Part shown: positions 6,308 to 45,321 of the stretch, one piece after another
How the letters are laid out: each line of letters opens with the position of its first letter
How positions within the stretch are numbered: the stretch's first letter is position 1
Source: Hominimerdicola alba 8
Lineage (GTDB): Bacteria; Bacillota; Clostridia; Oscillospirales; Ruminococcaceae
Reading direction: 5' to 3'
Assembly: GCF_000178155.2 (NCBI RefSeq)
Contig: NZ_ADKM02000130.1
Span: 124,001 to 188,000, forward strand
Length of the DNA: 64,000 nucleotides
Notes under the pieces: generated by a model
Databases searched by the model: none
What the model was told of the DNA's origin: nothing
What the model saw: the letters and a program-made list of their open reading frames with translations, nothing else
Translations under genes and position numbers: made by a program

Positions 6308-8248
6308 ATGCTGGTAAAAATTGAGCATCTGTATAAATATTTTAACGGCGAGCCGCTGCTGAAAGACATCAACCTCGTGATCGAAGACCACGAAGCTGTG
6401 GGACTTATCGGTGTCAACGGGTGCGGTAAGTCCACGCTGCTGAACATACTTATGGGCGATCTGGGCTATGACAAGACCGATGACGGTCTGGGTTCGGTGG
6501 AAGTTTCATCGAACTGCACCATCGGTTTTCTGCGGCAGAACAGCGGTCTGGAGAGCAGTTCGACCATTGACGAGGAACTGCACAAGGCTTTCGACAAGCT
6601 GATAACCGCACGAAAGCGAATGGACGAACTTGAACAGCAGATGACACATCTGACGGGGGCTGAACTGGAAGTGGTCAGCGGTGAGTATGCCGAACTTTCG
6701 GCATATTTTGAAGCGAATGACGGTTACCGCATCGATGTCAACATCAGCCGCATCTTAAACGGTATGGGCTTTGGCGATGTGCCGCGTGACAGGGTGATAT
6801 CATCGCTTTCGGGCGGCGAGAAGACACGTCTGGCGCTGGCAAAGCTGCTGCTTGAATGCCCCGACCTGCTGATACTGGACGAGCCGACAAACCATCTTGA
6901 CTTCACGACACTGATGTGGCTGGAAGATTATCTCAAAAGCTACAAGGGTTCGATACTGATAGTTTCGCACGACAGGTACTTCCTGAACAAGGTATGTTCG
7001 CGCATATGTGAGATAGAACAGGGGCGGCTGACCTCCTACAAGGGCGGGTATTCCGCTTATGTGGTGCAGAAAAAGCACAACGCGGAGCGTCAGCTGAAAG
7101 AGTGGGAGGCTCAGCAGGAGGAGATAAAGAAGCTGGAGGATTACATCGTTCGCAACAAGACGAGGGCTTCCACTGCGAAGATGGCGAAATCGCGTCAGCA
7201 TATGCTGGACAGGATAGAGCGCATCGACAAGCCGCTGATGTTTACCAGACCGCCGAAGATAAAGCTGGAATACGACATCGAGCCGACTAAGGACATAGTT
7301 AAGGTGATAGACTGCCCGCTGGTCGTGGGTGAGGGCGAGAGCAGAAAGACGCTGATAAACAGCCTTGACATGCACATCAGGCGGGGTGAGCATGCCGCCA
7401 TAATCGGGGCGAACGGCATCGGCAAGACCTCGATACTCAAGCTGATACAGGGCATTATCCCGCACGAGCGCGGCAATATAGTGTGGGGCGGGAATGTTAA
7501 GATATCCTACTTTGAGCAGGAGCACAACATACTGCACATGGGCAGCACTGTCATAGATGAACTGACAGACCGTTTTCCGAGCATGACACCTGCTGAGGCG
7601 CGAAAGGCTCTGGGGGCGGTACTGCTGACGGGTGAGGACGTTTTCAAGCCTGTTTCGGTACTGAGCGGCGGCGAGCGTGCGAAGCTGTGCTTTGCAATAA
7701 TGGCGAACACGCGCGGCAACGTGCTTATCCTTGATGAGCCGACAAACCATCTCGACCTGAACACGAAAGAAGTTCTGGAAGATGTGCTGGCTGAGTTTGA
7801 GGGGACTATCATACTGGTATCACATGACCGATACCTGATAAACAAGGTGGCTGACCGCATAATTGAGGTCAAGGCTGATGAAGTCAACTGTTATGAGGGC
7901 AACTTTGATGCTTACGCGGAAGCTGTCAGTGCGGCGGGCGCGAAAGCGGCAGAGCAGGCGGCAGAACAGCGCCGCATTCAGGCTGAGCAGGACAAGCGTG
8001 AGCAGAAAGCCATAAGTTACCGAAGCAAGGAACAGCGCGCTCTTGATGCGAAGCGCCGCGCGAGGGTCAGGGAGTTGGAAGGACTTATCGAGCAGGCTGA
8101 GGTGGACATTTTCAACCTTGAAAACGAGATAGCAGACCCCGAAGTGGCGGCGAATTACGGTCTGATGACCGAGAAGTGCAATCTGCTGGAAGCAAAGCGC
8201 ACCGAACTTGACGAGATGATGGACGAATGGGCGGAACTTTCGGAGTAA
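6308..8248 (+). CDS. ABC-F family ATPase (translation factor / ribosome-protection type)
   Basis: A soluble protein of 646 residues with two ABC ATPase domains and no membrane segment. Domain 1 carries GVNGCGKSTLLN, LSGGEKTRLALAKLL and LLILDEPTNHLDF. Domain 2 carries GANGIGKTSILK, LSGGERAKLCFA and LILDEPTNHLDL. The charged linker between them (about residues 250-320) corresponds to the P-site tRNA interaction motif of ABC-F proteins. The last ~100 residues are a coiled coil. Members bind the ribosomal E site; some relieve stalled translation and some give antibiotic resistance, and I cannot tell which applies here. TAGGAG lies 6 bases before ATG. The stop codon is the first triplet of a family C repeat. 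Confidence 0.93.
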   Translation: MLVKIEHLYKYFNGEPLLKDINLVIEDHEAVGLIGVNGCGKSTLLNILMGDLGYDKTDDGLGSVEVSSNCTIGFLRQNSGLESSSTIDEELHKAFDKLITARKRMDELEQQMTHLTGAELEVVSGEYAELSAYFEANDGYRIDVNISRILNGMGFGDVPRDRVISSLSGGEKTRLALAKLLLECPDLLILDEPTNHLDFTTLMWLEDYLKSYKGSILIVSHDRYFLNKVCSRICEIEQGRLTSYKGGYSAYVVQKKHNAERQLKEWEAQQEEIKKLEDYIVRNKTRASTAKMAKSRQHMLDRIERIDKPLMFTRPPKIKLEYDIEPTKDIVKVIDCPLVVGEGESRKTLINSLDMHIRRGEHAAIIGANGIGKTSILKLIQGIIPHERGNIVWGGNVKISYFEQEHNILHMGSTVIDELTDRFPSMTPAEARKALGAVLLTGEDVFKPVSVLSGGERAKLCFAIMANTRGNVLILDEPTNHLDLNTKEVLEDVLAEFEGTIILVSHDRYLINKVADRIIEVKADEVNCYEGNFDAYAEAVSAAGAKAAEQAAEQRRIQAEQDKREQKAISYRSKEQRALDAKRRARVRELEGLIEQAEVDIFNLENEIADPEVAANYGLMTEKCNLLEAKRTELDEMMDEWAELSE

Positions 8249-8274
8249 TTCACAATTCATAATTGTTGGCATGG
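8246..8274 (+). repeat. Family C stop-codon repeat at the end of the ABC-F gene
   Basis: TAATTCACAATTCATAATTG followed by TTGGCATGG. The first TAA is the stop codon of the ABC-F gene. This is the only plus-strand gene among the five with this arrangement, and the element keeps the same orientation relative to its gene. Confidence 0.75.
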
Positions 8275-8301
8275 TCGGAAGAATTGTGTGCTGACAATAA
8301 A

Positions 8302-8340
8302 AAAGCACCTGTTCCCTGAAATTGGGGACGGGTGCTTTGT
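8302..8340. terminator. Bidirectional terminator between converging genes
   Basis: AAGCACCTGTTCCC pairs with GGGACGGGTGCTT. On the minus strand the hairpin is followed by TTTTTTATT, and on the plus strand by TTTGTTTGCTT. It separates the ABC-F gene from the converging EAL gene. Confidence 0.85.
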
Positions 8341-8415
8341 TTGCTTATTGCGGTCCTGTTATCTTTCGCGCGAAACAGTGTCAGGCGTGTTGCGGCGGGA
8401 TAGCAAAATTATGCT

Positions 8416-10338
8416 TTAAGCCTGCTTTTCGAGAAGTTCGATGAGATCGCGCTTTGATATCGGGCGGGAGAAGAGGTAGCCTTGTGCGTAATCTACGCCC
8501 ATATCGCGGAGTATTTGCAGTTGGTATTCGGTCTCTACGCCCTCAACAAGTATCTTGCGGCGCATCTGTCTTATCATGCGCACGCTGCTGTCGAGTATTA
8601 TCTGACCGAGCTGACCTTTTTCGGCGCTCCACAGAATGCTTTTATCGATCTTTACGATATCGAAATCCAGCCTGAATATCGACTGCATATTTGAGTAGCC
8701 TGTGCCGTAGTCGTCCATTGAGAATTTGAAGCCTTGTTTTTTAAGGGTGCGAACCACCCTGCTGAGGGTGATGTAGTCGCTGGCGGCTATGGACTCGGTT
8801 ATCTCGAAATTTATCATGTGTTTGTCGATGCCGTACTCTTCGACTATGTCTGCGATGTGGTCGGCAAAATTCGGCTGCATGCACTGGAGCACCGAAAGAT
8901 TCACATTGATGCAGTCCATGCCGTATTTCTTCGGCACACCGCTCCTGATAAAGTCGCAGACCTCGCGCAGTACGTAGTCATCGACCTCATCGATAAGACC
9001 TATCTGTTCAGCGATGGGTATGAATTCATCGGGGAAGAGGTTGCCAAGTTCGGGGGCGTGCAGGCGTATCAGGGCTTCTGCGCCATGCAGACGTTTTTCC
9101 TGCACGTAGTAAGTGGGCTGATAGAATACCTCAAAGAAGTGTTCGCTCAGTCCTTTTGTCACGGCGCTTTCGACAGCGGCGCGGCGAAGCAGGTAGTCAA
9201 GGTCTGAGCCTGTGAGGATATTCTTATCCAGCTTTTTGGGAACAGGGCTGTCAGCCATGTAAAGGGCATCGTTAACAGTATGTATACGTTCGGGGACATC
9301 TGCCGCCATCAGCATGACTTTCAGCGGAAATTCGTTATCGCCTATCCTCCAGGGCTGTTCAAATCGCTCGGAGATGGTGCCTGCCAGCCAGACAGCTTTT
9401 TGCTCATCGCTGTCCATAAGGGTGACCATGAAAGTATCGGGGCTGGTGCTGTAGACATAATATCGCGGCACCAGTGTACGCAGGTATTCAGCCACCAGTT
9501 TTGAAAGTGCATCGGTATTATCCGAACCTGTGGCGCGTTTGATTATCTCGGTGTTGGTTATCTTAACGCACAGCAGGTAGAGGTTTCTGCCGCTGACGAT
9601 ATAGGTATTCATATCAGCGGTGAGGGCGCGGCGGTTATAGATGCCCATGCCTGCATCGATTCGGTCGTCCTCTATCTCAATGGATATCATAACGCCCAGC
9701 ATGGCGACTATCTCGCTGAGAAGTTCTGTTCTGAGGTCATAGTTATAAAGCTGAACGCTCAGACCTATCAGCACGATGAAGAAGAAGTATATGAGCGCGG
9801 TGCGGCGCTTTGTATTCAGCGCCCTCCACGAGAACATCAGCATGAATACCGCCATCATCATATAAAGCCCCGCTTCGGCGTATATCAGCATAAGTCCCCA
9901 GTTGCGGTGGTATTCCATATTGCGGTCATAGTAGTAGACCAGCTTGGTAGCGGGATTGAAGACCACCATCAACTCAAATATCAGTGCAGGTATGAAGCTG
10001 ATGATATAGCGTTTTCGCTTGCCGCTGAGGTTCGCACCGCAGACTGACAGCACGTACAGGTAGAACATCGGTGAGATGAGTGCATGTATCAGAAAATAGG
10101 TGAAATGCCCGAACCTGACTGCAAGGGCGGCGTTTGATGAAACGGCGCAGTAGGGTGTAGCGACTGCGGCGATTATCTCCGAGATACAGTTGCAGACCAC
10201 CATTATCAGCAATGCAAGATATATCTTGTTCTGCTGTTTGTCGGTACGGCGGTTGAGAATTGTGAACAGTATGCCCGTGATACCGATGAGTATCGACGAG
10301 GCGTACATGACAACTTTGAATTGAGTGGTAAAAGGCAT
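8416..10338 (-). CDS. Membrane 7TM protein with degenerate GGDEF and intact EAL domain (c-di-GMP phosphodiesterase)
   Basis: 640 residues. The first ~220 hold about seven membrane helices, forming a sensor module. A GGDEF-like region follows at about 230-360, in which the GGDEF signature is lost (STSPDTFMV occupies that place), so no cyclase activity is expected. The EAL domain (about 385-635) keeps every catalytic element I can check: EALIRL, NVNLS, FEITES, DDYGTGYS, VKIDKS, LVEGVETE and AQGYLFSRP. The expected reaction is hydrolysis of cyclic di-GMP at the membrane, possibly tuned by GTP binding to the dead GGDEF domain. GGAGGG precedes the ATG. The gene has its own promoter at 10384-10412 and shares the terminator at 8302. 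Confidence 0.92.
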   Translation of the reverse strand: MPFTTQFKVVMYASSILIGITGILFTILNRRTDKQQNKIYLALLIMVVCNCISEIIAAVATPYCAVSSNAALAVRFGHFTYFLIHALISPMFYLYVLSVCGANLSGKRKRYIISFIPALIFELMVVFNPATKLVYYYDRNMEYHRNWGLMLIYAEAGLYMMMAVFMLMFSWRALNTKRRTALIYFFFIVLIGLSVQLYNYDLRTELLSEIVAMLGVMISIEIEDDRIDAGMGIYNRRALTADMNTYIVSGRNLYLLCVKITNTEIIKRATGSDNTDALSKLVAEYLRTLVPRYYVYSTSPDTFMVTLMDSDEQKAVWLAGTISERFEQPWRIGDNEFPLKVMLMAADVPERIHTVNDALYMADSPVPKKLDKNILTGSDLDYLLRRAAVESAVTKGLSEHFFEVFYQPTYYVQEKRLHGAEALIRLHAPELGNLFPDEFIPIAEQIGLIDEVDDYVLREVCDFIRSGVPKKYGMDCINVNLSVLQCMQPNFADHIADIVEEYGIDKHMINFEITESIAASDYITLSRVVRTLKKQGFKFSMDDYGTGYSNMQSIFRLDFDIVKIDKSILWSAEKGQLGQIILDSSVRMIRQMRRKILVEGVETEYQLQILRDMGVDYAQGYLFSRPISKRDLIELLEKQA

Positions 10339-10383
10339 TTTTTCCCTCCTTTATTTTAGAAAAAAAGAGTAATTTGTTATAAA

Positions 10384-10412
10384 AATTATAACACAATTAC
10401 ATTAAAAATGCA
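10384..10412 (-). promoter_or_regulatory. Promoter of the EAL gene
   Basis: Minus strand TTGCAT, 17 bp spacer, TATAAT, about 45 bases before the ATG at 10338. Confidence 0.75.
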
Positions 10413-10481
10413 ACAAGTAAAGCCTATCATTGTGCATAATAAATAGTAATTTGCCGTCCGATTTAGTGATTTGATAGAAAT

Positions 10482-10515
10482 AGCAAAGCGCACCTCTTGC
10501 GGGGTGCGCTTTGCT
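10482..10515 (-). terminator. Hairpin terminator after the GH5 gene
   Basis: A perfect 13 bp stem (AGCAAAGCGCACC with GGTGCGCTTTGCT) abuts the stop codon of the GH5 gene. The trailing T content on the minus strand is modest (ATTTCT). Confidence 0.75.
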
Positions 10516-10516
10516 G

Positions 10517-11752
10517 TTATTTTTTGCCCAGCGGGAATATCCTGTCTTCGCAGACAGTCATCATTTTTTCAATGGCGGGCTGGATATCGAGCCAGAGTCC
10601 GCAGCCGTCGTCCGAACCGCTGGATTTCCATGCGAAAACGCCCTGATAGCCGTTGTTATAGGCAGTTTCGTAGACGTTCGAGATATCGTAGCCGTCCTTG
10701 CCCTTAGCGGGGAGTTCACCGATAACGGTGGGTTTGGAAGTTTCAAGCCCGAATTCTTCGGGGGTGTTTTCGTAGATAGTGCCCCAGTTGGGTATCATCC
10801 AGTCATACCAGTGGGTAGACCAGAAATCAACATAGGCGAGGGAACTGTCATATTTGCCGATATCAAGGCTTTGCAGTTCTTCATCGGATATCTTGTTGCC
10901 GTTCTGCTTATCGGAGTTATACTTTATCATGCCCATGCCGACGGTGACCAGCACATCGGAATTTGCGTGTATGGCAGAGCAAGCCTTTGCGTAATACTGT
11001 TCCAGCGACAGCCAGTCCAGCTTGCCGCACTCGGAGTTTTCGATTATCCAGTCAGGTTCATTGCAGAGGTCTACCGACCAGAGGTAGTCGCAGGCATCAT
11101 AGCGCTTCACCAGCGGGACTATGTAGTTATCCACATATTCATCGGTGTGTTCGGTGGACTGTATAAGTGTGCGCCAAGCCTCGTAATTCTGGTTGGTGTC
11201 CTTGAAGTGGTCAAATGACTGCACTGTTGCCATCACGTATATCTGATAGTTTTCAGCCAGCATGAACAGGCTGTCGAGGTCTTCCCAGTGGGCAGTGGTA
11301 GCGCCCTCAAAAGTGCCGTCGGGGGATATCATCATGCCCACATCGCCGTTACAGCTTATCCAGATACGGCAGGCGTTTACGCCCGCATTGTGGAGCTTCT
11401 CAAAATGTTCCTGCCAGAAAGAGAAGTTGAAGCCGCCTCCGAAGTCGTTCCACTTATCCCACGGAGTATTTACGCCGTTGAACCAAAGTTCCTTGCCGCC
11501 GACCATGAACTTGTCGCCCGATACAGTGACCTTCGCGGAGCCGTCACAGGAAGTTTCAAAGGGTTTTGACAGAACATCTTCGCTGCCTGAGTTTTCGGTG
11601 GTTTCAGCACTTGACTGTTCTTTCTTTTCGGAAGCCGATGAATTATTGTCGGCTGTTTTTTTGTTTTCTTCCTCTTTTTTGCCGCCGCAGGCTGACATAC
11701 CGACAGTCAGCACAGCCGCGCAGAGGATAGCCATCAACTTGTTTGTTTTCAT
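10517..11752 (-). CDS. Lipoprotein glycoside hydrolase, family 5 / clan A (mannanase- or cellulase-like)
   Basis: 411 residues. The signal peptide ends in a lipobox (VGMSAC), followed by a low-complexity K/E/S/N linker to about residue 65, so the enzyme is tethered outside the membrane. The catalytic domain shows KELWFNGVNTPWDKW, then the acid/base Glu232 in LCNEPDW and the nucleophile Glu346 in VIGELPA, the spacing expected for GH5. HWYDWMIPNWG holds the aromatic cleft residues. The N-terminal barrel resembles GH5 beta-mannanases most, but cellulase activity cannot be excluded. The ATG is preceded by GAAGGGAATGG. No dockerin or carbohydrate-binding module is seen. Confidence 0.85.
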   Translation of the reverse strand: MKTNKLMAILCAAVLTVGMSACGGKKEEENKKTADNNSSASEKKEQSSAETTENSGSEDVLSKPFETSCDGSAKVTVSGDKFMVGGKELWFNGVNTPWDKWNDFGGGFNFSFWQEHFEKLHNAGVNACRIWISCNGDVGMMISPDGTFEGATTAHWEDLDSLFMLAENYQIYVMATVQSFDHFKDTNQNYEAWRTLIQSTEHTDEYVDNYIVPLVKRYDACDYLWSVDLCNEPDWIIENSECGKLDWLSLEQYYAKACSAIHANSDVLVTVGMGMIKYNSDKQNGNKISDEELQSLDIGKYDSSLAYVDFWSTHWYDWMIPNWGTIYENTPEEFGLETSKPTVIGELPAKGKDGYDISNVYETAYNNGYQGVFAWKSSGSDDGCGLWLDIQPAIEKMMTVCEDRIFPLGKK

Positions 11753-11826
11753 TTTTTACCATTCCCTTCATTTATCATGGTTTACCCATATATCCGACCC
11801 TTGCCCTGTGCAAGCGGGCGAGGGGT

Positions 11827-12168
11827 TCATCGGTCGTTCTGCCACTCCTGATTCCAGTTTTTCTTGTCGCGTTCGACATCCAGCTTAAGGCGCATCTGAG
11901 TGATCTTATCGTCCAGCTTTTTTACCAGCTTTTGTACATCGTCAGCGTTATAGCCGTTCGTGCGGGCGGCACGCAGGCGTGTTTTACGGTATGGTTCGGG
12001 CTTGGTGAACTCCTTGTTCCAGCTTTTGAGCTGCCAACATTCTTCGAGGGCTTTCAGTTCAGCCATCATATTTGAAAGCAGAGTCAGAACATCTTTTATC
12101 TCGTAGCCACAGCCGTGAACCTCGCGGAGATCGCTGACTTCCGCAGGTAGATCTTTGATACTGTACAT
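11827..12168 (-). CDS. Small helical cytoplasmic protein, unknown function
   Basis: 113 residues, highly charged, probably two long helices (about 15-50 and 75-105) able to form coiled coils. The segment RTNGYNADDVQKLVKKLDDK loosely recalls the GYxxxEVDxFL motif of DivIVA-type coiled coils, but this is too weak to assign. AAAGGGG lies 6 bases before ATG. The gene has a clear promoter at 12234-12262 and lies 74 bases upstream of the GH5 gene, so it may be the first gene of a two-gene unit. Confidence 0.65.
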   Translation of the reverse strand: MYSIKDLPAEVSDLREVHGCGYEIKDVLTLLSNMMAELKALEECWQLKSWNKEFTKPEPYRKTRLRAARTNGYNADDVQKLVKKLDDKITQMRLKLDVERDKKNWNQEWQNDR

Positions 12169-20302: not shown

Positions 20303-20305
20303 CCT

Positions 20306-20409
20306 TATAGCGATCCGCCTTAAAATTCAGACAAGATCCAGTCACAAAACCCATAAATCCCAGCTTTTGCGACTGGATTTTGCGAATTTAAAAAGTTGGA
20401 TTGCTATAG
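20306..20409 (+). repeat. Family A hairpin repeat, copy 2
   Basis: Full-length, from TATAGCGATCC to GGATTGCTATAG. It lies between the cassette terminator and the converging membrane protein gene. Confidence 0.92.
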
Positions 20410-25556: not shown

Positions 25557-25593
25557 CTGCCAATAATTATGAATTATGAATTATGAATTATCA
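25557..25593 (-). repeat. Family C stop-codon repeat at the 3' end of galE
   Basis: Read on the minus strand, the galE stop TGA leads directly into three TAATTCA-type heptamers and TAATTATTGGCA. Confidence 0.8.
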
Positions 25594-26601
25594 AAGCCCG
25601 TTTGGGTTGTTTTTGATGAAGTTCCAGCTGCTTGCTGTCATTTCGTCAAGGGTCAGCTTAGCTTCCCAGCCGAAGACTTTCTTTGCCTTGTCGGGGTTCG
25701 CATAGCAGGTGGCGATATCACCTGCGCGGCGTGGCATCACCTTGTAGGGGAGTTTCTTGCCGCACGCCTTTTCAAAGCTGTGCAGTACATCGTAAACGGA
25801 AGAACCCTTGCCTGTACCCAGATTTACCGCGTCACAGCCCTTGTTCTCCAGCACGTATTTAAGCGCACAGAGATGACCCTTAGCCAGATCGACAACGTGG
25901 ATATAATCACGCACGCCTGTACCGTCGGGAGTGTCGTAATCGTCACCGAAAATGCCCAGCCTTTCCAGCTTGCCCACAGCCACCTGACAGATGTACGGCA
26001 GAAGATTGTTGGGTATGCCGTTGGGGTCTTCACCGATGAGTCCGCTTTCATGTGCGCCGATGGGGTTGAAGTACCTCAGCAGTGATACCGACCATTCGGG
26101 GTCTGCAACGCAGACATCTTTGAGTATCTGCTCTATCATCACCTTAGTGTAGCCGTAAGGATTTGTGGCAGAAGTCGGCATATCCTCAGTGTATGGCGCT
26201 TTGTTGACAGGACCGTAAACAGTCGCAGAAGAGGAGAAAACTATCTTCTTGACACCTGCATTGCGCATCGCCTGTATCAGCAGAAGTGTGCCTGTGATGT
26301 TGTTGTGGTAATACTCAACAGGCTTCTGCACGCTTTCGCCCACAGCCTTAAGACCTGCAAAGTGTATCACAGCATCTATCTTGTTTTCCTCGAATATCCT
26401 CTCCATAGCCGAAAGGTCGAGCATATCAGCTTCATAAAAGCCGAATTCCTTGCCTGTTATCTGCCTTATTCTATTCAGCGCTTCGGGCTTTGAGTTGGAA
26501 AAGTTATCCATGATGACCACATCGTAGCCTGCATTAAGCAGTTCAACGACCGTGTGACTGCCAATAAAGCCTGCGCCGCCTGTTACAAGTACCATTGACA
26601 T
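25591..26601 (-). CDS. galE: UDP-glucose 4-epimerase
   Basis: 336 residues that interconvert UDP-glucose and UDP-galactose, linking galactose released by the beta-galactosidase to glycolysis and to wall glycan synthesis. Visible are the NAD-binding TGGAGFIGSH, the Ser in SSSATVYG and the catalytic YGYTK (YxxxK). GGAGG lies 7 bases before ATG 26601. It has its own promoter at 26639-26666. The stop abuts a family C element. Confidence 0.96.
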   Translation of the reverse strand: MSMVLVTGGAGFIGSHTVVELLNAGYDVVIMDNFSNSKPEALNRIRQITGKEFGFYEADMLDLSAMERIFEENKIDAVIHFAGLKAVGESVQKPVEYYHNNITGTLLLIQAMRNAGVKKIVFSSSATVYGPVNKAPYTEDMPTSATNPYGYTKVMIEQILKDVCVADPEWSVSLLRYFNPIGAHESGLIGEDPNGIPNNLLPYICQVAVGKLERLGIFGDDYDTPDGTGVRDYIHVVDLAKGHLCALKYVLENKGCDAVNLGTGKGSSVYDVLHSFEKACGKKLPYKVMPRRAGDIATCYANPDKAKKVFGWEAKLTLDEMTASSWNFIKNNPNGL

Positions 26602-31098: not shown

Positions 31099-31550
31099 TT
31101 TGGCGGCGTAGTTAGCACTTTTCCGCTGAAACGGCTTGCTATCGTCCATGCCAATAATTATGAATTATGAATTTGGCGGCGTAGTCAGCACTTTTTTCGC
31201 TGAAACAGCTCGCTATCGTCCATGCCAATAATTATGAATTTGGCGGCTTAGTCAGCACTTTTTTCGCTGAAACGGCTTGCTATCGTCCATGCCAATAATT
31301 ATGAATTATGAATTTGGCGGCGTAGTTAGCACTTTTTCCGCTGAAACGGCTCGTTATCGTCCATGCCAATAATTATGAATTATGAATTTGGCGGCGTAGT
31401 CAGCACTTTTTCCGCTGAAACGGCTCGCTATCGTCCATGCCAATAATTATGAATTATGAATTTGGCGGCTTAGTCAGCACTTTTTCCGCTGAAACGGCTC
31501 GCTATTGTTCATGCCAATAATTATGAATTATGAATTATGAATTATGAATT
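31099..31550 (-). repeat. Six tandem 67-74 bp units of the family C element
   Basis: Unit starts are at about 31099, 31172, 31239, 31313, 31387 and 31461. Each unit carries the conserved block around GCACTTTTTCCGCTGAAACG plus AATAATTATGAATTATGAA (plus strand). The last unit has extra heptamers and enters the 3' end of the amidase gene. The repeated DNA is the 3' portion of one family C element, multiplied. No gene is seen from 30919 to 31527. Confidence 0.9.
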
Positions 31551-32256
31551 CCAAAACCCCCGTCATGATGGTGAAGGATACTTCGCGGCGGTATTCTTCG
31601 GTTTCCAGCTTTGCCGCTTCTTCGGGATTTGAAAGGAAACCGCATTCTATCATGACAGCAGGTGTGTCGGTTTTGTCAAGTAGATACAGTTCGTCATCAA
31701 CAGGCTTCGTTTCACGCTCGTTATCTGGCTGTAAAAGCGAAACGAACTGTTTCTGCATAGCACCCGCAAGCCTTTCACCCTCGCCGTTGCGCCGCGAATA
31801 GAACATCTGCGCACCGCTGAACCGACTGTCGGTGAACTGGTTCTGGTGTATCGAAATGGCGATGTTTTTGGAACTGTCAAACATTGCAAGGCGGTTTTTC
31901 ATATCCGACTGCTTCTGCTTTGAAAGCCCCTCTATGCCTTCATCGTATATTGAACGGTCGTCCTCGCGGGTCATTTTCACATCGAAGCCCATTATATTCA
32001 GCAGTTCACGTTCGGTAAGTGCTATGTCGAGGTTTATGCCCTTTTCGGCAGTGCCGTCAACGGATATGCACCCGCCGTCCATTCCGCCGTGACCCGCATC
32101 TAGCACCACCTGCGGGTGTTCTTTTACGGGGGCTGAAACTGCGGCGGCGATGTGTTCCTGCGCTTTTTTGCCCGCAATGTCCCCCGCCCATACAAAGCCT
32201 GTCAGCAGTGCGAAAACCCCACAGCAGGTTAGTATCTTCTTAGCTTTAGTGTTCAT
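31528..32256 (-). CDS. cwlD: N-acetylmuramoyl-L-alanine amidase (Amidase_3, CwlD-like)
   Basis: 242 residues. One N-terminal membrane segment or uncleaved signal (about 8-25) is followed by a zinc amidase domain: VLDAGHGGMDGG (first His ligand), the Glu in AEKGINLDIA, SIHQNQF (His) and the catalytic Glu in AVMIECGFLSN. It cuts the amide between muramic acid and the peptide; CwlD homologues make muramic-delta-lactam in spore cortex. The final residues IIHNS and the stop are encoded by family C heptamers, so the original C-terminus has been replaced or extended. Confidence 0.88.
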   Translation of the reverse strand: MNTKAKKILTCCGVFALLTGFVWAGDIAGKKAQEHIAAAVSAPVKEHPQVVLDAGHGGMDGGCISVDGTAEKGINLDIALTERELLNIMGFDVKMTREDDRSIYDEGIEGLSKQKQSDMKNRLAMFDSSKNIAISIHQNQFTDSRFSGAQMFYSRRNGEGERLAGAMQKQFVSLLQPDNERETKPVDDELYLLDKTDTPAVMIECGFLSNPEEAAKLETEEYRREVSFTIMTGVLEFIIHNS

Positions 32257-32921: not shown

Positions 32922-33025
32922 CTATAGCAATCCGCCTTAAAATTCAGACAAAATCCGGTCACAAAATCCATAGATCCGAGCTCTTGCGACTGGATTTTGT
33001 GAATTTAAATAGTTGGATTGTTATA
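32922..33025 (+). repeat. Family A hairpin repeat, copy 4
   Basis: A full 104 bp copy with slightly diverged arms (CTCTTGCGACTGG, GGATTGTTATA). A diverged family B end (GGTCATTCCTTTAAGACACC) immediately precedes it. Confidence 0.9.
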
Positions 33026-33139
33026 AGAATAAAGGCATAACAAGGAACAGTTATTGAGATGTATTCTTTCCCCCGTCTGCGGCGGTGGAAGGATAGCATC
33101 AGCACGATGTTTCCTTGTTATAAAGCATTTTGCGGTGTG
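33026..33139. repeat. Inverted-repeat segment between two family A copies
   Basis: ATAACAAGGAA (33037-33047) and TTCCTTGTTAT (33111-33121) are perfect complements. They enclose a CCCCCGTCTGCGGCGG hairpin similar to the family D core. It appears to be another small mobile or dispersed element. Confidence 0.65.
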
Positions 33140-33243
33140 CTATAGCAATCCGCCTTAAAATTCAGACAAAATCCAGTCACAAAACCCATAAATCCCAGCT
33201 TTTGCGACTGGATTTTGTGAATTTAAAAAGTTGGATTGCTATA
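33140..33243 (+). repeat. Family A hairpin repeat, copy 5
   Basis: A full 104 bp copy in direct orientation relative to copy 4, starting 218 bases downstream of the start of copy 4. The rest of 33244-33357 has no gene. Confidence 0.93.
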
Positions 33244-33357
33244 AATGGATAACCACGTATTATTATGCTCCACAACTCTTTTGATATAGGCATTTTCTAC
33301 AAGTCAAGGTTAATGCCATCTGATGCGAATTGTGAATTAAAAAAAGCTAATTAAACT

Positions 33358-36819: not shown

Positions 36820-36989
36820 GTTAAGTCATCGCTATGCTATGGGTATTTGCTTGCTTCGGTCGAGGGTCTTGTCTGTTACCGTCTTTTGCTTTGTTCGCCC
36901 GACTTGTTTTGTTAGTCGCGTTGCTTTGCCGCTCTTTATCGTTAAAACAGCTTGCTTTCGTCCATGTCAATAATTATGAATTATAAATC
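36820..36989 (-). repeat. Family C element distal to pyrD, interrupted by a family B copy
   Basis: Read on the minus strand, TATAATTCATAATTATTGACA leads into the conserved CATGGACGAAAGCAAGC tail. The missing 5' part (TCAATTCATAATA) is found beside the pyrD stop, on the other side of the family B element. No gene lies between 36676 and 37125. Confidence 0.65.
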
Positions 36990-37114
36990 GTGGTTATCCC
37001 GCTGACACACCACAAAAACGGCGTTTTTACAGAACTTAAGGTGGTTGGCGTATGGCGCTCAATTTTCCTTTTGTTTACAGCATTTTCAGCCGGTGTGCTA
37101 AAGGGATAGTCATA
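36990..37114 (+). repeat. Family B repeat, copy 1 (full)
   Basis: It runs from GTGGTTATCCCGCTGACACACC to GGTGTGCTAAAGGGATAGTCATA, with imperfect terminal inverted repeats and a conserved core ACAGAACTTAAGGTG. Confidence 0.88.
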
Positions 37115-37125
37115 TTATGAATTGA

Positions 37126-38037
37126 CTACCAAGGTTTTACTGTGCCGACTATCTCACTGATGTTGTTGATGCCATTGTCTTCACAGAATTTCTGCATGCC
37201 ATCGATTATCTTCACAGGTGCATACGGGTCGGCAAATATCGCCGCACCTACCTGCACAAGACTCGCACCTGCCATCATGATCTCTATCGCATCTTCCCAT
37301 GTGGATACGCCGCCCATGCCGCAGACAGGGATATTGACAGCGTTTGCCACCTGCCATACCATTCGGACTGCCACAGGGAACACCGCAGGACCCGAAAGTC
37401 CGCCCACGTTATTTCTGAGGACAGGTCTTCCAGTGTTGATGTCGATGCGCATGCCCAGCAGTGTATTGATGAGCGATACCGCATCAGCGCCGTTCGCTTC
37501 AACACTTTTGGCGATGTCGGTTATACTGGTGACATTCGGTGACAGCTTGACCATCACGGGTTTATCGGAATTGTCCTTTACAGCCTTAGTTACCTGACCC
37601 GCGATAGTGCAGTCAGTACCGAAAGCCGCGCCGCCCTGTTTTACGTTGGGGCAGGAGATGTTCAGTTCTATCATATCCACCGCACTGCCTTTAAGTTTAG
37701 CGGCGAGTTCAGCGCATTCTTCTATGGTCGAACCTGCTATGTTCGCGATTATGCGTGTGTCTTTTGTGACGAGGTTTGGCAGTTCGTATGAGAGGAACTT
37801 ATCAACGCCGCCGTTTTGCAGACCCACAGAATTCAGCATTCCTGATGGTGTTTCTGCCACACGCGGCGCGGGATTACCCTCGCGGCGGTGCAGTGTGGTG
37901 CCCTTTACCGATATGCCGCCCAGTGTCGAGAGTGGGTAAAGGCATTCATATTCTCTGCCGTAGCCGTATGTGCCGCTGGCAGGAACTATAGGGTTTTTGA
38001 AATCAACTCCGCAGAAGTTCACGTTCAGTCTGTTCAT
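37126..38037 (-). CDS. pyrD: Dihydroorotate dehydrogenase B (NAD+), catalytic subunit
   Basis: 303 residues that oxidise dihydroorotate to orotate on FMN in pyrimidine synthesis. The FMN/substrate motifs are NPIVPASGTYGYG, LNSVGLQNGG, ELNISCPNVKQGG (catalytic Cys of the class 1 enzymes) and the phosphate-binding GMGGVSTWEDA. It pairs with the electron-transfer subunit upstream, whose stop it overlaps by 4 bases. The stop TAG is followed at once by family C and B repeat sequence. Confidence 0.96.
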   Translation of the reverse strand: MNRLNVNFCGVDFKNPIVPASGTYGYGREYECLYPLSTLGGISVKGTTLHRREGNPAPRVAETPSGMLNSVGLQNGGVDKFLSYELPNLVTKDTRIIANIAGSTIEECAELAAKLKGSAVDMIELNISCPNVKQGGAAFGTDCTIAGQVTKAVKDNSDKPVMVKLSPNVTSITDIAKSVEANGADAVSLINTLLGMRIDINTGRPVLRNNVGGLSGPAVFPVAVRMVWQVANAVNIPVCGMGGVSTWEDAIEIMMAGASLVQVGAAIFADPYAPVKIIDGMQKFCEDNGINNISEIVGTVKPW

Positions 38038-39460: not shown

Positions 39461-40539
39461 TTGCCTGCACCTGCACTTTCGTAAAAATCTTCGATGGTCT
39501 GCATAAGTTCGGTGTTGATGGTGTTGACTATCGTCTTGTCCATCTCTTTGGTCAGTTCTGTGAGTTTTTCATCACGTTCCTTGCCCTTATAGTTTTCCAT
39601 TATCTCCTTTTTGCGCTGATTGAACGGCTTTTTGTACTCGTTGCATTCATCGCTGTTGAAGAATTTGTTGTGGTCGGCATTCTCGCCCGTCAGCGTGATA
39701 AACTGTGCATTGGGGTTGGTTATCTCGTCACGCTTTGAAACTATGCTGACTTCGCTGTACACCACGAAATCGTCATTCTCACCGTGTATCAGCAGGTTTG
39801 GTATGCCCGACTTGTTTATGCCGTCAACAGCGTTAAGGTCTGCATATTCTTTGAAAACCAGTTTATTATAGCCCCACACGAAAGGGTGGAAGACTATTGC
39901 GGCTTTGGTCTTCATGGTCTGTATCGTGCCGACATCAAGCATTTCGATGGGGTCGGCGTAGCCCGACATTTCGGCGCTTGCCTTGATATCGTGGTCAAAA
40001 TTCTGCACTGCACTGACAGCGAAGCCGCCCCAGCTGTGTCCCAGCAGGAAGATATCAAGCCCTGCAAGTCGAGGGTCGTTCTCGGCAAAAGTGAGGGCTT
40101 TGTCAAGGTCTATAGCCGACTGCACCAGTCCGACCGAACCTTTACCTTCGCTCCAGCCCGAACCTGTGGCATCGTATGTGAAGACCCTCCAGCCCTTTTC
40201 CACGAACCACATCAGCTGATTTATGTAACTTTCATGCCCTGTGGATATGCCGTGTGCAAACACCAGCAGACCTTTCGGGCTTTCGTTCTCCATGCCGTAG
40301 ATGAAGCCTTTCAGCATATTTTCGCCCGACTTGAACTCTACTTCTTCACGCGGGTGTATATCTTTCCAGTCGGGGTCATAGCGGTTGTACGGGTCGGAAT
40401 CTTTGGCGGGGTAGTCACCTCTGCCGAAGATATTGTGCATGACCGTGACAGTCACCCCGCACATCGCCGCGAAAAGCAGCGCTATCACTGACAGTGATAT
40501 GAACAGTGCTTTTTTGTAACTGTGCTTTTTTCTGCTCAT
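39457..40539 (-). CDS. Membrane-anchored alpha/beta hydrolase
   Basis: 360 residues. One N-terminal membrane anchor (about 12-35) is followed by an alpha/beta-hydrolase domain with the oxyanion block LVFAHGIS, the nucleophile elbow GHSWGG, the Asp in IHGENDDFVV and the His in NADHNKFF. The C-terminal ~60 residues are a charged helix. An esterase, lipase or peptidase acting on the cell surface is plausible; the substrate is unknown. Confidence 0.82.
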   Translation of the reverse strand: MSRKKHSYKKALFISLSVIALLFAAMCGVTVTVMHNIFGRGDYPAKDSDPYNRYDPDWKDIHPREEVEFKSGENMLKGFIYGMENESPKGLLVFAHGISTGHESYINQLMWFVEKGWRVFTYDATGSGWSEGKGSVGLVQSAIDLDKALTFAENDPRLAGLDIFLLGHSWGGFAVSAVQNFDHDIKASAEMSGYADPIEMLDVGTIQTMKTKAAIVFHPFVWGYNKLVFKEYADLNAVDGINKSGIPNLLIHGENDDFVVYSEVSIVSKRDEITNPNAQFITLTGENADHNKFFNSDECNEYKKPFNQRKKEIMENYKGKERDEKLTELTKEMDKTIVNTINTELMQTIEDFYESAGAGK

Positions 40540-40554
40540 ATATTTCTCCTCACT

Positions 40555-40618
40555 CCCAATTATGATGTGTATTGCTGATGATACAAAATAGCTTTTCTTT
40601 CGTATTTGGATTTGATTT
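40555..40618 (-). repeat. Family D element, one end only
   Basis: CCAATTATGATGTGTATTGCTGATGATACA and onward match the reverse complement of the right half of the full element at 61479-61572. The other half is missing and a family B copy follows directly. Confidence 0.7.
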
Positions 40619-40743
40619 TATGACTATCCCTTTAGCACACCAACTAAAAATGCAGTAAACAAAAGGATAATTGAGCACCATACGCCAAGAACTTTAAGTT
40701 CTGTATAGCCACTGTTTTTGTGGTGTGTCAGCGGGATGACCAC
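40619..40743 (-). repeat. Family B repeat, copy 3 (full, inverted)
   Basis: From TATGACTATCCCTTTAGCACACC to GGTGTGTCAGCGGGATGACCAC, with the core CTTTAAGTTCTGT. Confidence 0.88.
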
Positions 40744-40807
40744 ATTTTTTGTATCTCTTTCCCCGCCATCGTCAGGGGAAAGCGATACTCGACCCTATCG
40801 GGACTTT

Positions 40808-41953
40808 TCACTTGACATTGAATAGCTTCACATATTCGCTCTGGTTTTCTATAACGCCGAAAGCGCGGGCGCGCATGAATATTTTGGTAGCCCAGTTGGT
40901 GTGGGGGCGTATCTCGTTCATCTTATTGCCGCCCGAACCCTTTACCACGCCGCCCTGAGTGTTTCCGAGTATCATGCAGGCATCATCGTATTCCTCTTTT
41001 GTAACAGCCATCAGCGCATTTACAAAGCGCACATGTGTGGGGTGAATGACAGTCCTGCCCACGAAACCGTTTGCCTTATCGAGAATGACCTCTCTCAGCA
41101 GACCATCGACCTCGTTATTAACTATGGTCTGCCGTTTGAACAGGTAGTCTTCAAGGCTGTGGGAGGGGAGTTCTTCAAACATCAGTTCTTTCGGTGCGCG
41201 GAAGTACTCCCACACGGGACCCGAAATGACATAGTCGTTGTTGCGCCCGCAGATGTTCATGATATCGGCAAGGCATTCGCGGACGGTCATAATATCGTAT
41301 ATGGAATAATCTACCCCTCGCCTTACGCCGAACACCGATGAAAAGTCAGTGCCGCCGACCCTTACCTGCAAGACGAGGTCGTGGTACTTGTCGAGTATGC
41401 GTTTTATGCCCAGCAGTTCGGTGATGCGGCTTTCCTTATAGGCAACTTCGGGGTCTTCGATGATGGGCATGCCGTATAGTGTATCGCCCAGCACTTCGCT
41501 CAGACCTTTGAGGTAAGCGAAGTATTCGTAGCCGTTTTCGGCGTTGAATTTCGGGAAATTTATGCCGCACAGTGACTTTGCCTTATGCTTGTCAAGTCCT
41601 TTTGCAAAGTGCCTGAACTGTTCAAGATTGCGTATGCGCACGAATATCAGCGGCACGCGGTCGGGATCGAGAGTGCCGTTCTCAACAGCATCGGTGACAG
41701 TATCAAGCAGATGATAGACATTTTTCTCGGCGGCTTCAACGCTGTCTTCGGGACATGCGTCCTCAAAGCACAGCACGACTGTGGTAAGACCGGGCATCGA
41801 ACCGTTGAGTATCTTCGGCGTGAAGTTTTTAGTGCCGGGCATGTACATGGTAGCGCCCAGACAGTATTGCAGAAGTTCTCTGTCTGTGTACTTATCGAAA
41901 CTTTCGGGTTCACGGACGAATTTGAAATCGGGGTTATAGAGATGGTGTTTCAT
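40808..41953 (-). CDS. HpcH/HpaI-like C-C bond lyase (TIM-barrel, type found with tellurium-resistance clusters)
   Basis: 381 residues from ATG 41953 (MKHHLYNPDFKFV), with AAAGGAAA upstream; a long in-frame extension upstream lacks a ribosome binding site and looks non-coding. Citrate-lyase-beta-like features: VVLCFEDACPEDSVEAAE (metal-binding Glu/Asp), IFVRIRN, GMPIIEDP and NGFVGRTVIHPTHV. This matches the C-C bond lyase family usually encoded beside ATP-grasp, phosphoribosyltransferase and TerD genes, none of which is in this window. Substrate unknown. It has a strong promoter at 41988-42016. Confidence 0.78.
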   Translation of the reverse strand: MKHHLYNPDFKFVREPESFDKYTDRELLQYCLGATMYMPGTKNFTPKILNGSMPGLTTVVLCFEDACPEDSVEAAEKNVYHLLDTVTDAVENGTLDPDRVPLIFVRIRNLEQFRHFAKGLDKHKAKSLCGINFPKFNAENGYEYFAYLKGLSEVLGDTLYGMPIIEDPEVAYKESRITELLGIKRILDKYHDLVLQVRVGGTDFSSVFGVRRGVDYSIYDIMTVRECLADIMNICGRNNDYVISGPVWEYFRAPKELMFEELPSHSLEDYLFKRQTIVNNEVDGLLREVILDKANGFVGRTVIHPTHVRFVNALMAVTKEEYDDACMILGNTQGGVVKGSGGNKMNEIRPHTNWATKIFMRARAFGVIENQSEYVKLFNVK

Positions 41954-41987
41954 AGTATTTCCTTTCAATTTTATCGGATATGCTTTG

Positions 41988-42016
41988 ATTATATCATCAA
42001 TGGGGGAATATGTCAA
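41988..42016 (-). promoter_or_regulatory. Promoter of the C-C lyase gene
   Basis: Minus strand TTGACA, 17 bp spacer, TATAAT: full consensus. Confidence 0.85.
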
Positions 42017-42582
42017 CAATTTCTCACGGCATGGCTTCTGCTGACTTGCGGGGGAAGGCTTAGTTTGCATCTTATTGGCATTGTGTACTTTCGTTTTATT
42101 GCTGGTTTTTCTCTTTTTATGGACTGCCTCCCCTCCCTCCCACCCGCAGATCATCGTCCCTTGAACTATTGACAGCCTATTGCGGTGGACAGCGCCACGA
42201 CCGCCGAAAACGCTGTCGCTGTCCGGCAAATATCACGCAGGCAATTCGCTTCCAGCACACAGAAAGAGCGCGGACGAGAGTTTCGTCCACGCTCTTATCT
42301 CTGCAAATTGCCTGCTAATTATGGTCGAAGGCTTTGACCTCTTACTGTCTGTCACATTGTTCGCCCAAAAGGATAGCGAGTATCGTTTCTTTGCCGTTCC
42401 CCGATTGAGGGCGCTGCCCTCAAACTCCCGCAAGCCCTCTGGCGGCGGGCTTGACCGACCGCTTTGACTCGCACACAGCTTTGTGTTCTTACTCCGCTTT
42501 GTCCGCGTCATGTTTTGCGCTTTTTCCGCCTAAAACGCCATTCTTTCGGTCATGTCAATAATTATGAATTATGAATTATGAA
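42017..42582. other. 566-base non-coding region rich in hairpins, ending in a family C element
   Basis: No supported gene. A nested cruciform lies at 42237-42315: outer arms GCAGGCAATT/AATTGCCTGC, inner arms AAGAGCGCGGACGA/TCGTCCACGCTCTT. Further on are GAGGGC/GCCCTC and AAGCCC/GGGCTT hairpins. From about 42470 the sequence ACTCGCACACAGCTTTGTGT through AATAATTATGAATT is a long family C copy, matching 31060-31160. Confidence 0.65.
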
Positions 42583-45321
42583 TTATGAATTACTAAGCCC
42601 CGTGTTTTCGGCAGATCTTAATTTGGTAAAGGTGATGCTTCGCATATCAAGTCCGCCAAGACCAAAATGCAGTCGGAAGATGGTGTATCTTGAGAATAGA
42701 GGCATTTCATCTATGGTGAAGGTGACAGGTTCGCCGCCTGTGCCGTTCCAGGTGAATGTGCCCCATGCCGTGCCCATGCTGAATACGGTGACAGGCATCT
42801 GCGCTAACTCGCTCTGTGTCGAACTTGCGGTTATCTCCATGCGGTACTGACCCAGCTGTGTGACATCAAGGGTAAAGCTGTAGTCAAGGTTTCTCGCAGT
42901 TTTAACAGCGGTCATGTCGATGGTCAGTCCGCCGTCAAGGGTGAATACCCTCTCAGCCGCACCGTCATCGACAGTTTCGGCAGGTTTGTTTATCACTTCG
43001 ACTGTTTCGTCACTGCCTGTCACACGCTTCATGGCATGCGTGCCGAGAATAAAGGAAAGCACGTTCCTCGCCGCACGCTGGAGTTCAGCGCGTCTAAGTT
43101 CGCCATTTTCAAGGGAAGCCGCCACATTGTCGGTGTGCTTGCCGCCGTCAGCGCAAACCATGTAGACATCGTTCTGTGCCCTTACCATCGCGGCGAAGTT
43201 GTCCTTGTCAGGTTTACAGCCCCTGTCGTTGATGTTTGCCCACCAGTCGGTCATGGTAAAGCCTGTAAAGCCCCACTCGTGGCGGAGTATCGTGGTGTTC
43301 AGGTCGATGCTTCCCGCAGTCCACAGGTCGTTGACCTTGCCGTAGGTGGTCATTATGGACTTTGCGCCGCCCTCTTTGACAGCTATCTCAAAGCCTCTCA
43401 GGTATATCTCCCTCAGCGCCCTTTCGCTGACTGCCGAGTCAAGGAAATGCCTGTTTGTTTCCTGATTGTTGCCGCAGAAATGCTTTATCGTGCCCTCAAC
43501 GCCGACACTGTGCAGACCTTTCAGTTCTGCCGCCGCCATTTTGCCCGTGAGGAACGGGTCTTCCGAGAAATACTCGAAGTTTCTGCCGTTCAGCGGGTGA
43601 CGGTGTATATTCATTCCGGGACCCAGCAGGCAGTCTACCTTGTTGGCACGCATCTCAAGACCCGTCATCGTGAACAGTTCAGTCAGCAGCGGCTTGTTGA
43701 AGGTTGCCGCGATAAGTGTGCCGTTGGGCAGGCTGAAAGCCTTTGTGCCAACATCAAGGCGCATGCCCGAAGGTCCGTCCGAACAACAGCCCGCAGGCAC
43801 TTTCCGTTCAGCAAGCCTGTCTGAAACACCGCCGAAAGCCGCCGCCGTACCGGGTGTGACCTTAGGCGAACACATTCCCTCACCGCGCACAAGGCAGTTG
43901 AGGTCATTGTCATCAAGCTGTGCGATGAAGCTGTCAAGGTCGTTCCTGCCCTCAGCCACATCGGCAAGTGTGATGCCCTTGTCACCAGACTGTGTTATCT
44001 CTTCGGGCATGAACTGAAGTCTTCTCGCCTTTTCGTCCACCTTTGACATGGGAACTTTTTTGTACGCAAGACCGTTTTCGGTGCGCACCATGCGCTCAAA
44101 CTCAGTCACAGGTGCAAGTGCCTGTTCAAGCTGTTCTATGACGATATCTTCCGCCGCCGTGAAGCTGTATACTTTCTTTGCAGACCTGACATCACTGCCC
44201 GCATAGATGTTATACTCTCCCGCTTCCATCACCCATGCGTAAGCGCCGCTGTCATCGTATGAAGCCATACTGCGGCTGTCAATGTCAATATCGAGCGTAC
44301 ACTCTTCGCCTGCCGCCAGCAGGGGAGTTTTCTCAAACCCGCACAGCACTCTTGCCGCCTTGCCCAGCCTGCCGTTCGGGGCTTCGATGTATACCTGCAC
44401 GACTTCCTTGCCCGCGCAGCTGCCGATGTTTTTCACTTTAGCTGTGAGTTTTACCCCCTCAGCACCGCCGACTGCTTCCGCAGTTATCTCAAAGTCGGTG
44501 TAGCTTAGTCCAAAGCCGAAAGGATAGCGCACCTTGTCTTTGGCGAAAGTTTCAAAGTACCTGTATCCCACGAAGATATCTTCGGCGTAGAAATTGCGGT
44601 CACGGTCATGGAAATTCTTGTCAGATGGGTAGTCAGCAATATCGAACGCTATAGTATCGGGCAGTTTGCCGCTGGGCGAAACTTCTCCCAGCAGTACCTT
44701 AGCCGCACCTGTGCCGCCCGTCATGCCGCCCTGCCAGAGGTACATCACACCATCGGGCGAGAATTCGTCCACAAAGCCCATGTCGATGATATTGCCCACA
44801 TTCAGCAGAACAGCCATTTTCTTAAAGTGCTTCCTGACAGTGCGAAGCATATCCTTTTCGGCATCGGTCAGCAGATACGAACCCGCTTTACAGCTGTTGT
44901 CCTGTTCTTCGCCCGCAGTCCTGCCTATCACGCAAAGCGCGGCATCGGAAGTTTCAGCCGCCTCAGCCGCCAGTTCGTCACTAAGCGGCATCTCCTGCTG
45001 ACACCAGGGTTCGCCGCCCCAGCCCTCGCCGTAGTCGTAGGGGTGTTCAGCCACCCAGTCACGGTAGGTCTTAAGGACTTTTCCGTTCAGCTTTGCGCCC
45101 GCCTCCAGCAGACCGTCAACTATGCCCGTCACCTTAGCCACGTTGACCATTCCGCCCGAACCTGTGCCGCTTTTGTAGTAGTCCAGCTGTATCCGCCCGA
45201 AAACGGATATCTCGCTGTTTTTGTCCAGCGGCAGAACGCCGTCATTTTTCAGCAGTACAGCGCCCTCAGCGTTGACCTCTGCGGCTTTTTCGAGATATTT
45301 GTTCCAGTCGAGTATTGCCAT
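42583..45321 (-). CDS. Beta-glucosidase, glycoside hydrolase family 3, permuted domain order
   Basis: 912 residues, cytoplasmic. The domain order is reversed compared with most GH3 enzymes. The alpha/beta sandwich normally at the C-terminus comes first (about 1-270, with GAVLLKNDGVLPL and RYPFGFGLSYTDF), then a fibronectin-like domain. The TIM barrel follows (about 470-800) with KHFCGNNQETNR and the nucleophile Asp691 in GFTMTDWW. A beta domain ends the protein. Reversed order is known from Ruminococcus beta-glucosidases. It would hydrolyse cellobiose or other beta-glucosides. The last two residues (NS) and the stop are family C heptamer sequence. Confidence 0.92.
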   Translation of the reverse strand: MAILDWNKYLEKAAEVNAEGAVLLKNDGVLPLDKNSEISVFGRIQLDYYKSGTGSGGMVNVAKVTGIVDGLLEAGAKLNGKVLKTYRDWVAEHPYDYGEGWGGEPWCQQEMPLSDELAAEAAETSDAALCVIGRTAGEEQDNSCKAGSYLLTDAEKDMLRTVRKHFKKMAVLLNVGNIIDMGFVDEFSPDGVMYLWQGGMTGGTGAAKVLLGEVSPSGKLPDTIAFDIADYPSDKNFHDRDRNFYAEDIFVGYRYFETFAKDKVRYPFGFGLSYTDFEITAEAVGGAEGVKLTAKVKNIGSCAGKEVVQVYIEAPNGRLGKAARVLCGFEKTPLLAAGEECTLDIDIDSRSMASYDDSGAYAWVMEAGEYNIYAGSDVRSAKKVYSFTAAEDIVIEQLEQALAPVTEFERMVRTENGLAYKKVPMSKVDEKARRLQFMPEEITQSGDKGITLADVAEGRNDLDSFIAQLDDNDLNCLVRGEGMCSPKVTPGTAAAFGGVSDRLAERKVPAGCCSDGPSGMRLDVGTKAFSLPNGTLIAATFNKPLLTELFTMTGLEMRANKVDCLLGPGMNIHRHPLNGRNFEYFSEDPFLTGKMAAAELKGLHSVGVEGTIKHFCGNNQETNRHFLDSAVSERALREIYLRGFEIAVKEGGAKSIMTTYGKVNDLWTAGSIDLNTTILRHEWGFTGFTMTDWWANINDRGCKPDKDNFAAMVRAQNDVYMVCADGGKHTDNVAASLENGELRRAELQRAARNVLSFILGTHAMKRVTGSDETVEVINKPAETVDDGAAERVFTLDGGLTIDMTAVKTARNLDYSFTLDVTQLGQYRMEITASSTQSELAQMPVTVFSMGTAWGTFTWNGTGGEPVTFTIDEMPLFSRYTIFRLHFGLGGLDMRSITFTKLRSAENTGLSNS

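Follow-up and report, generated by a model that had tools for sequence, protein, structure and literature searches.

A repeated element that begins with the heptamer TAATTCA lies, in about two thirds of its primary copies, at the stop codons of ordinary genes, where it reads in the sense direction and often supplies the stop codon. The phenomenon itself is well supported. Each unit opens with a 5′ tag, one to five TAATTCA heptamers long, and continues with a putative stem-loop that is imperfect and variable; some copies have a longer variable downstream part. Our preferred reading, held with modest conviction, is a REP-like repeat in which a tag with stops in several frames is joined to a weak hairpin; it would insert on or next to stop codons, persist and be remodelled in place. 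The window, i.e. the whole stretch of 64,000 nt presented above, covers positions 124001–188000 of contig C7 of a 4.05-Mb draft genome, referred to here as the home genome; related genomes are designated by number (G002 to G026).

Structure of the element and its copies in the window

Profile searches named the five window genes associated with the element as ABC-F, galE, a CwlD-like amidase, pyrD and a GH3-type glycosidase (Table 1). The initial annotation had placed the element at or inside the stop codons of the ABC-F, galE, amidase and GH3 genes, and all four places were as described; its statements that the last residues and stop of the amidase and GH3 genes are the repeat itself, and that the pyrD element is split by another repeat family, proved correct as well. 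Two details had to be revised: the CATG ending attributed to the galE copy reads TTGGCAGG instead, and the start is not a fixed TAATTCA, since the base before AATTCA varies. The whole amidase array (31150–31551) comprises six tandem units, and two blocks of 140–141 nt are confined to the home genome in the alignment with G018. The window also contains a MITE-like family of about 101–105 nt (TATAGCAATCC...GGATTGCTATA), of which the copy at 45564 is absent from G018.

Table 1 Features located in the window (window coordinates).
Feature	Position	Strand	Description
Variant copy	97-117	+	TAATTCAAAATTATTGGCAGG; near window start
ABC-F element	8246-8270	+	2 heptamers + TAATTGTTGGC; first TAA is the stop (8246-8248) of gene 6308-8248; core next
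Terminator-like hairpin	8302-8338		Right behind the ABC-F copy
galE element	25559-25590	-	3 heptamers + TAATTATTGGC; flush behind the TGA stop of galE (25591-26595)
Five more tandem copies behind the amidase	31150-31463	-	Spacing 74 nt (once 67); fewer in G018
Amidase element	31513-31551	-	4 heptamers; supplies the C-terminal EFIIHNS (seven residues) plus the stop codon of the CwlD-like amidase (31528-32256)
pyrD element, 3′ part	36966-36983	-	Parted from the 5′ part by a copy of repeat family M3
pyrD element, 5′ part	37114-37124	-	CAATTCATAAT; adjoins the stop TAG 37126-37128
GH3 element	42554-42592	-	4 heptamers + TAATTATTGAC; supplies the C-terminal NS (two residues) plus the stop codon of gene 42583-45321
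MITE-like copies	20305-20409, 32922-33026, 33140-33244, 45564-45668, 55414-55518, 58069-58173		
RAYT-like gene	59304-59867	+	REP_Tyr_transpos 58.9 bits (below the cut-off of 80); Y1_Tnp 35.6 bits

The element consists of (TAATTCA)1–5, then TAATT(A/G)TTG(A/G)CA and then a variable core, with a mode of four heptamers among 85 home-genome copies. Its 5′ end is sharp (N, then AATTCA) and about 45 nt are conserved. At 79 distinct left junctions AATTCA was invariant, the preceding base was T in 55, and the bases further 5′ did not carry on the heptamer phase; the phase of the array is partly imposed because the search pattern demanded whole heptamers. The core following TTGRCA is conserved up to about +33. 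GTAG is absent from the conserved columns (AATTCA..TTGRCAKG), and a palindrome with GTAG at its foot was not found. Two consecutive heptamers (at most one mismatch, overlaps counted) gave 13 matches compared to 0.02 in shuffles. In the copies seen, no sense frame stayed open for more than 24 nt of the element. The long downstream form adds 150–600 nt that are common to about 20 copies, 15 of which were aligned.

TTGRCA pairs at six of six positions with a later hexamer in 54 of 103 cores from other genomes, compared to a mean of 16 and a maximum of 26 in permuted controls, the copies not being independent. In a half-swap fold test, real core halves folded better together than swapped ones for both 69 home-genome cores (z −2.9 to −4.4) and 76 cores from other genomes (z −2.0 to −3.9), with the best of 60 swaps equalling the real cores in two of six settings. 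A first stem test lay 2.4 sd above swapped tails, but one swap reached the real value. Single-copy folds were weak (mean z −0.54 in the home genome and −1.01 in the others), with individual values of −3.1 for a G002 copy, −2.6 for galE, −1.3 for ABC-F, −0.6 for the amidase and −0.2 for GH3. Covariation of TTGACA with TGTCAA showed few matching cases among more mismatches.

Two conventional signals were considered and rejected. For a promoter reading of TTGRCA, a T-rich block lies at 17 nt, yet −10 matches exceeded shuffles only slightly, with 7 among 83 at one mismatch against 2.4 expected; weak promoter-like matches (9–10 of 12) occur inside the arrays of galE, amidase and GH3. An intrinsic terminator inside the element was discarded because no terminator-like site was found on the sense strand within the window’s elements, separate ones following at ABC-F and galE. 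Rfam returned no match at gathering score in the window. The next start codon in sense lay at least 37 nt beyond the heptamer/TTGRC block in all 53 of 53 cases.

Distribution and placement at stop codons

The home genome has 66 + 68 places that match TAATTCATAATTNTTGNCATG with at most two mismatches and none that match the reversed pattern. Within the genus, TAATTCATAATTNTTGRCAKG was matched (at most one mismatch) in 10 of 29 genomes, one of them at a single place, and not in the other 19. A family survey with a longer pattern, covering 297 genomes drawn evenly from 126 genera (five genomes from this genus), gave matches in two genomes, both within the same genus, while an exact 21-mer scan of genome contigs gave 71 stretches, all in records titled Ruminococcus. 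So far, every find of the element family lies within the Ruminococcus albus part of the genus, and the family appears clade-specific. No paper on this repeat in Ruminococcus came up in searches of open-licence PMC papers.

Positions were counted in 745 kb of home-genome DNA, with genes called by a simple codon-usage script; 85 copies were reduced to 73 primary copies by counting one per gap and strand. Since stretches other than C7, C9 and C71 were picked around element matches, copy density outside these three is biased. In 49 of the 73 primary copies the stop codon of the upstream gene lay no deeper than 24 nt within the element and no more than 5 nt ahead of it, compared to a mean of 0.58 and at most 5 in 5000 random placements within the same gaps. 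The 5′ neighbour was in sense for 59 of the 73 (random expectation 31.6, maximum 46 in 5000 draws). The sense orientation that had been described as invariable holds for these window genes but not for every copy in the 745 kb. The enrichment at stops in the sense direction was strong on this scale and orientation was not random.

Offsets of the stop among the 49 adjacent copies were −3 (16 copies), −10 (11), −17 (10), −24 (3), 0 (4) and others (5), so that the stops noticed earlier in all three frames are truly used. The first in-frame TAA was the stop in 16 of the 49 copies, and the repeat encoded the C-terminal residues (-NS, -IHNS) of 24 of the 49 genes. Among the copies with a sense neighbour, 49 of 59 overlapped the stop or started at most 5 nt behind it, and 10 of 59 had 11–187 nt between stop and array, a class that includes the split pyrD copy and in which at least one copy starts nearer if variant heptamers are allowed. 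Among copies of control repeats with a stop on their 5′ side, this stop was at most 5 nt away in 1 of 29 (M1), 2 of 9 (M2), 3 of 14 (M3) and 0 of 7 (G+C-rich REP-like); M3 copies sometimes lie inside the element itself, as at pyrD. On the 3′ side of the element, 20 convergent genes had their stops at least 69 nt away. Twelve arrays lacking the standard core, counted outside the 73, were at a stop in 6 cases.

The junctions of the home genome share a motif of T-poor purines, then G/C, then TTTT, and a GCTT/GGTTT type occurred in the last 10 nt of 43% of the 49 junction gene ends compared to 2.6% of 496 other gene ends. This motif looks like a DNA preference. Where the 5′ neighbour was divergent, 7 of 14 copies had (A/G)TCAA no farther than 28 nt from the junction, against 928 of 10050 in the control, and we read all seven sites as putative −35 boxes of divergent sigma-70-type promoters, each followed 17 nt on by a −10 box. 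Such promoter-flush copies are not explained by a preference for stop codons alone; together with the junction motif they suggest that the 5′ end halts at functional borders generally, or prefers a DNA motif. Promoter-flush copies occur in contigs C71 and C97 of the home genome, e.g. at 118056 on the minus strand of C71. In contig C9 (22577 and 22884), the last codons of a gene recur together with the element about 300 nt downstream.

Eight relatives were used as replicates. Copies lay at a stop in 43 of 69 cases in G018, 7 of 10 in G008, 8 of 9 in G002, 12 of 13 in G003, 13 of 17 in G004, 18 of 29 in G013 and 17 of 24 in G025, while G026 was weak with 3 of 9. Together these amount to 121 of 180, or 170 of 253 with the home genome, among the copies read, the home genome and G018 not being independent since many of their sites are common by descent. 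All 9 listed places were read in G002, 12 of 17 plus one more in G003 and 13 of 13 in G026, as were 30 loci of 38 matches in G013, 30 of 33 in G025 and 17 of 26 in G004; G008 and G018, whose genomes have 46 and 149 matches, were represented by exact-scan loci only. Copies lacking a left gene were dropped (9 in the set of G018, G008, G002 and G003; 5 in the set of G004, G013, G025 and G026), and in the latter set genes cut by the locus edge were accepted, whereas duplicates and copies less than 60 nt from the locus end were dropped. CAMHRZ (5 of 6) and RUI259 (1 of 1) were excluded from the sum because they have copies in common with G025 and G013. In G002 and G003 together, 20 of 22 copies were at a stop, and the first in-frame TAA was the stop in 12 of the 22 compared to 16 of 49 in the home genome, as expected if frames drift with age.

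Orthologous gene ends and change at kept junctions

Gene ends of home-genome genes were compared in four genomes, and the element was recognised at the orthologous stop in 26 of 29 cases in G018, 7 of 28 in G008, 2 of 19 in G003 and 0 of 31 in G002, where one of the 31 genes had a decayed trace. That 26 of the 29 compared sites are common to the home genome and its nearest relative, G018, suggests that the copies are mostly old. At a gene read from its sequence as that of prolyl-tRNA synthetase, the copy is present in the home genome, G018 and G003, shortened in G008 and a decayed trace in G002. Empty orthologues, one or more per gene, were available for 32 genes; the median position of their native stops was at most one codon from the boundary in 20 and at most five in 27, the remaining five having native tails of 7 to 28 codons past it; home and native tail lengths were correlated (Spearman 0.61). 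Orthologues without the element end in other residues at nearly the same codon, the opposite of the identical C-termini that the initial annotation had set as a refutation.

Compared to G003 and G004, G002 has gained 44 nt (TAATTC...GTCAA) directly before the TGA in the stop region of one gene, with about 30 nt up to the next start codon still recognisable. As we read it, this young copy would be a 44-nt insertion at a stop codon in one event; automatic alignment sets the left flank elsewhere, and the exact ends are our own reading. It was the only small clean insertion found. A second, larger and less clear case is murG (named from sequence): against G018, the home-genome gene has changed its last residues from LIKA to LINS, the gap to the neighbouring gene is about 380 nt longer, and past the insert the former flank appears to continue at about 60% identity. 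No terminal inverted repeats or target-site duplication were seen by eye in the 44-nt insertion, and murG had at most a TTAT repeat; both features would be expected of a MITE. In one orthologue set, TAA-tcctttgg-TAATTCA in G003 and G004 corresponds to TAATTCA in G002, a loss that likely arose by deletion between TAAT copies.

At 24 of 29 sites the home genome and G018 could be compared in detail. Heptamer number was equal in 9 of them, and the cores were alike in 15 (at least 0.88), intermediate in 2 and family-random in 7 (below 0.65; random mean 0.51), with at least six of eight junction bases agreeing at six of these seven sites. A subfamily with the core GCATTGGAGAATG was represented by 22 copies in the G018 loci and by none in the 745 kb of home DNA, often as tandem units of 66–67 nt (loci L100–L170). 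Ten of the 22 lay beside a junction with a usable home orthologue, and at 8 of these 10 the home array has another core; the rest comprised four copies without an orthologue in the home DNA compared and eight inner copies. Among 53 indels in the alignments of the two genomes, seven contained element sequence, all as extra units beside existing copies, while M1, M2 and M3 accounted for nine whole-copy differences by our count. We read the change of heptamers and core at kept junctions as probable slippage and exchange between copies. These changes, together with element indels found only beside existing copies, suggest a family that is mostly old at its present sites and undergoes remodelling there.

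Competing explanations and relation to known repeats

In the REP-like reading that we lean towards, the element would act like a tagged, REP-type selfish repeat. New copies would land within about 15 nt of a stop, and short TAAT/TAATTCA deletions would then bring the array flush with it. Because the array stops every frame, later indels in the last codons would be tolerated, leaving proteins that end in -NS or -IHNS.

Untargeted insertion between genes is kept as a main rival, though we regard it as unlikely; here, deletions from the fixed 5′ end would trim the intervening DNA until selection halts them at something essential, whether a gene’s last codons or a promoter. Such trimming would suit the promoter-flush copies (7 of 14), the 10 of 59 sense-neighbour copies still 11–187 nt from a stop, the one deletion between TAAT copies and the 5 of 32 genes with native tails 7 to 28 codons beyond the boundary, but the G002 insertion and, less clearly, that at murG entered on the stop or immediately ahead of it and left the DNA behind them recognisable. 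Moreover, the 3′ side of the element is not flush with genes, the other repeat families in the same DNA are far less often flush, and in G002 and G003, whose copies have undergone fewer changes of frame, 20 of 22 lie at the stop.

We also doubt that the element is a useful part of the 3′ UTR, offering fail-safe stops and a hairpin (for mRNA protection, termination or protein binding) and spread by selection. No common function was noticed among the genes by inspection, 31 of 31 orthologous genes in G002 have no recognised copy, heptamer number and core vary at kept sites, and there was no match in 19 of 29 genus genomes nor in Rfam for the window. Against this stand the sense orientation and place at the stop, the 26 of 29 sites kept in G018, the prolyl-tRNA synthetase copy of the home genome, G018 and G003 with its remnants in G008 and G002, and the hairpin signal, to which the terminator-like hairpin right behind the ABC-F copy may be added.

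It seems quite improbable that insertion is guided by expression, the unit being set into the sense strand where translation ends, whether through single-stranded DNA behind the last ribosome or through cut mRNA copied back to DNA. If true, such guidance would account for both sense orientation and site without a stop-codon DNA motif. Finally, the placement is hardly credible as an artefact of an element that shortens any gene entered in sense, even with its stops closing every sense frame within 24 nt, because the orthologues end at nearly the same place (within one codon in 20 of 32, within five in 27) and largely contradict it, although truncation could still apply to the five genes whose native tails are long.

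The initial annotation knew of no described repeat family of this kind, which overlooked three precedents: GTAG REPs, TAACTGA heptamers and MIRUs. MIRUs of mycobacteria were reportedly described by Supply et al. in 1997. PMC12548453 presents MIRUs as mobile repeats whose insertion sites are start codons and which carry an ORF coupled to the gene; the element shares with them a small size, a place at gene boundaries and little effect on genes, but lies at stop codons and has no ORF seen in the unit. Heptamers of the sequence TAACTGA, found in Beggiatoaceae, Cyanobacteria and Bacteroidetes, stop all three frames, and in BOGUAY 13 sets of them overlap the stop of the upstream gene (PMC4679880). 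The element is likewise a tandem heptamer with stops in all frames; however, TAACTGA sets differ in sequence and taxa, mostly point at or adjoin start codons, upstream of which the element does not lie, and come with no mention of a conserved core in the portion of PMC4679880 consulted, whereas the element has one.

GTAG REPs often give a TAG stop to flanking ORFs and are placed in Proteobacteria, Cyanobacteria, Chloroflexi and the PVC group according to the excerpts of PMC3733652 consulted. Like the GTAG/CGTC REPs described in the same excerpts, the element combines a short tag with a stem-loop (putative in its case), has many copies, forms clusters and lies mostly downstream of coding regions, and it shares with GTAG REPs the capacity to give a stop codon there. 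Unlike theirs, its tag repeats a heptamer in tandem and closes all frames; its putative hairpin is weak and variable, it has no matching RAYT, and its orientation to the gene is nearly fixed at stops. The element resembles a tagged REP but has neither the GTAG feature nor the RAYT feature. That short repeats occur at gene ends was already known; so strong and direction-specific a preference for stops is unusual.

No mobilising gene for the element was found. The RAYT-like gene of the window (Table 1) was rejected as a candidate since it misfits the distribution of the element: close orthologues were found only in the home genome, G008 and G018, and none in the element-bearing G002, G013, G025 and G026. 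Ordinary IS200-type transposases were represented by one gene in the home genome and four full matches in G002, while G018 and G008 had only the RAYT-like match. The RAYT-like gene has close orthologues (69–73%) in 2 of the other 28 genus genomes and contains, in frame within its own coding sequence, two G+C-rich REP-like palindromes, one with GTAG.

The bacteria concerned are a rumen group related to Ruminococcus albus, and the element provides a many-copy natural experiment on gene ends, with about two thirds of 253 primary copies from nine genomes on a stop in one orientation. If the stop preference is mechanistic, it raises the question of how a DNA insertion can sense the end of translation, and guidance by expression, if true, would be a pathway of transposition in which stop codons are read. 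The element also illustrates how a repeat that carries stops for all frames can persist at the termini of core genes (prolyl-tRNA synthetase, IF-2, SecA and MurG, as named from sequence), and how protein C-termini such as -NS and -IHNS can be written by a repeat.
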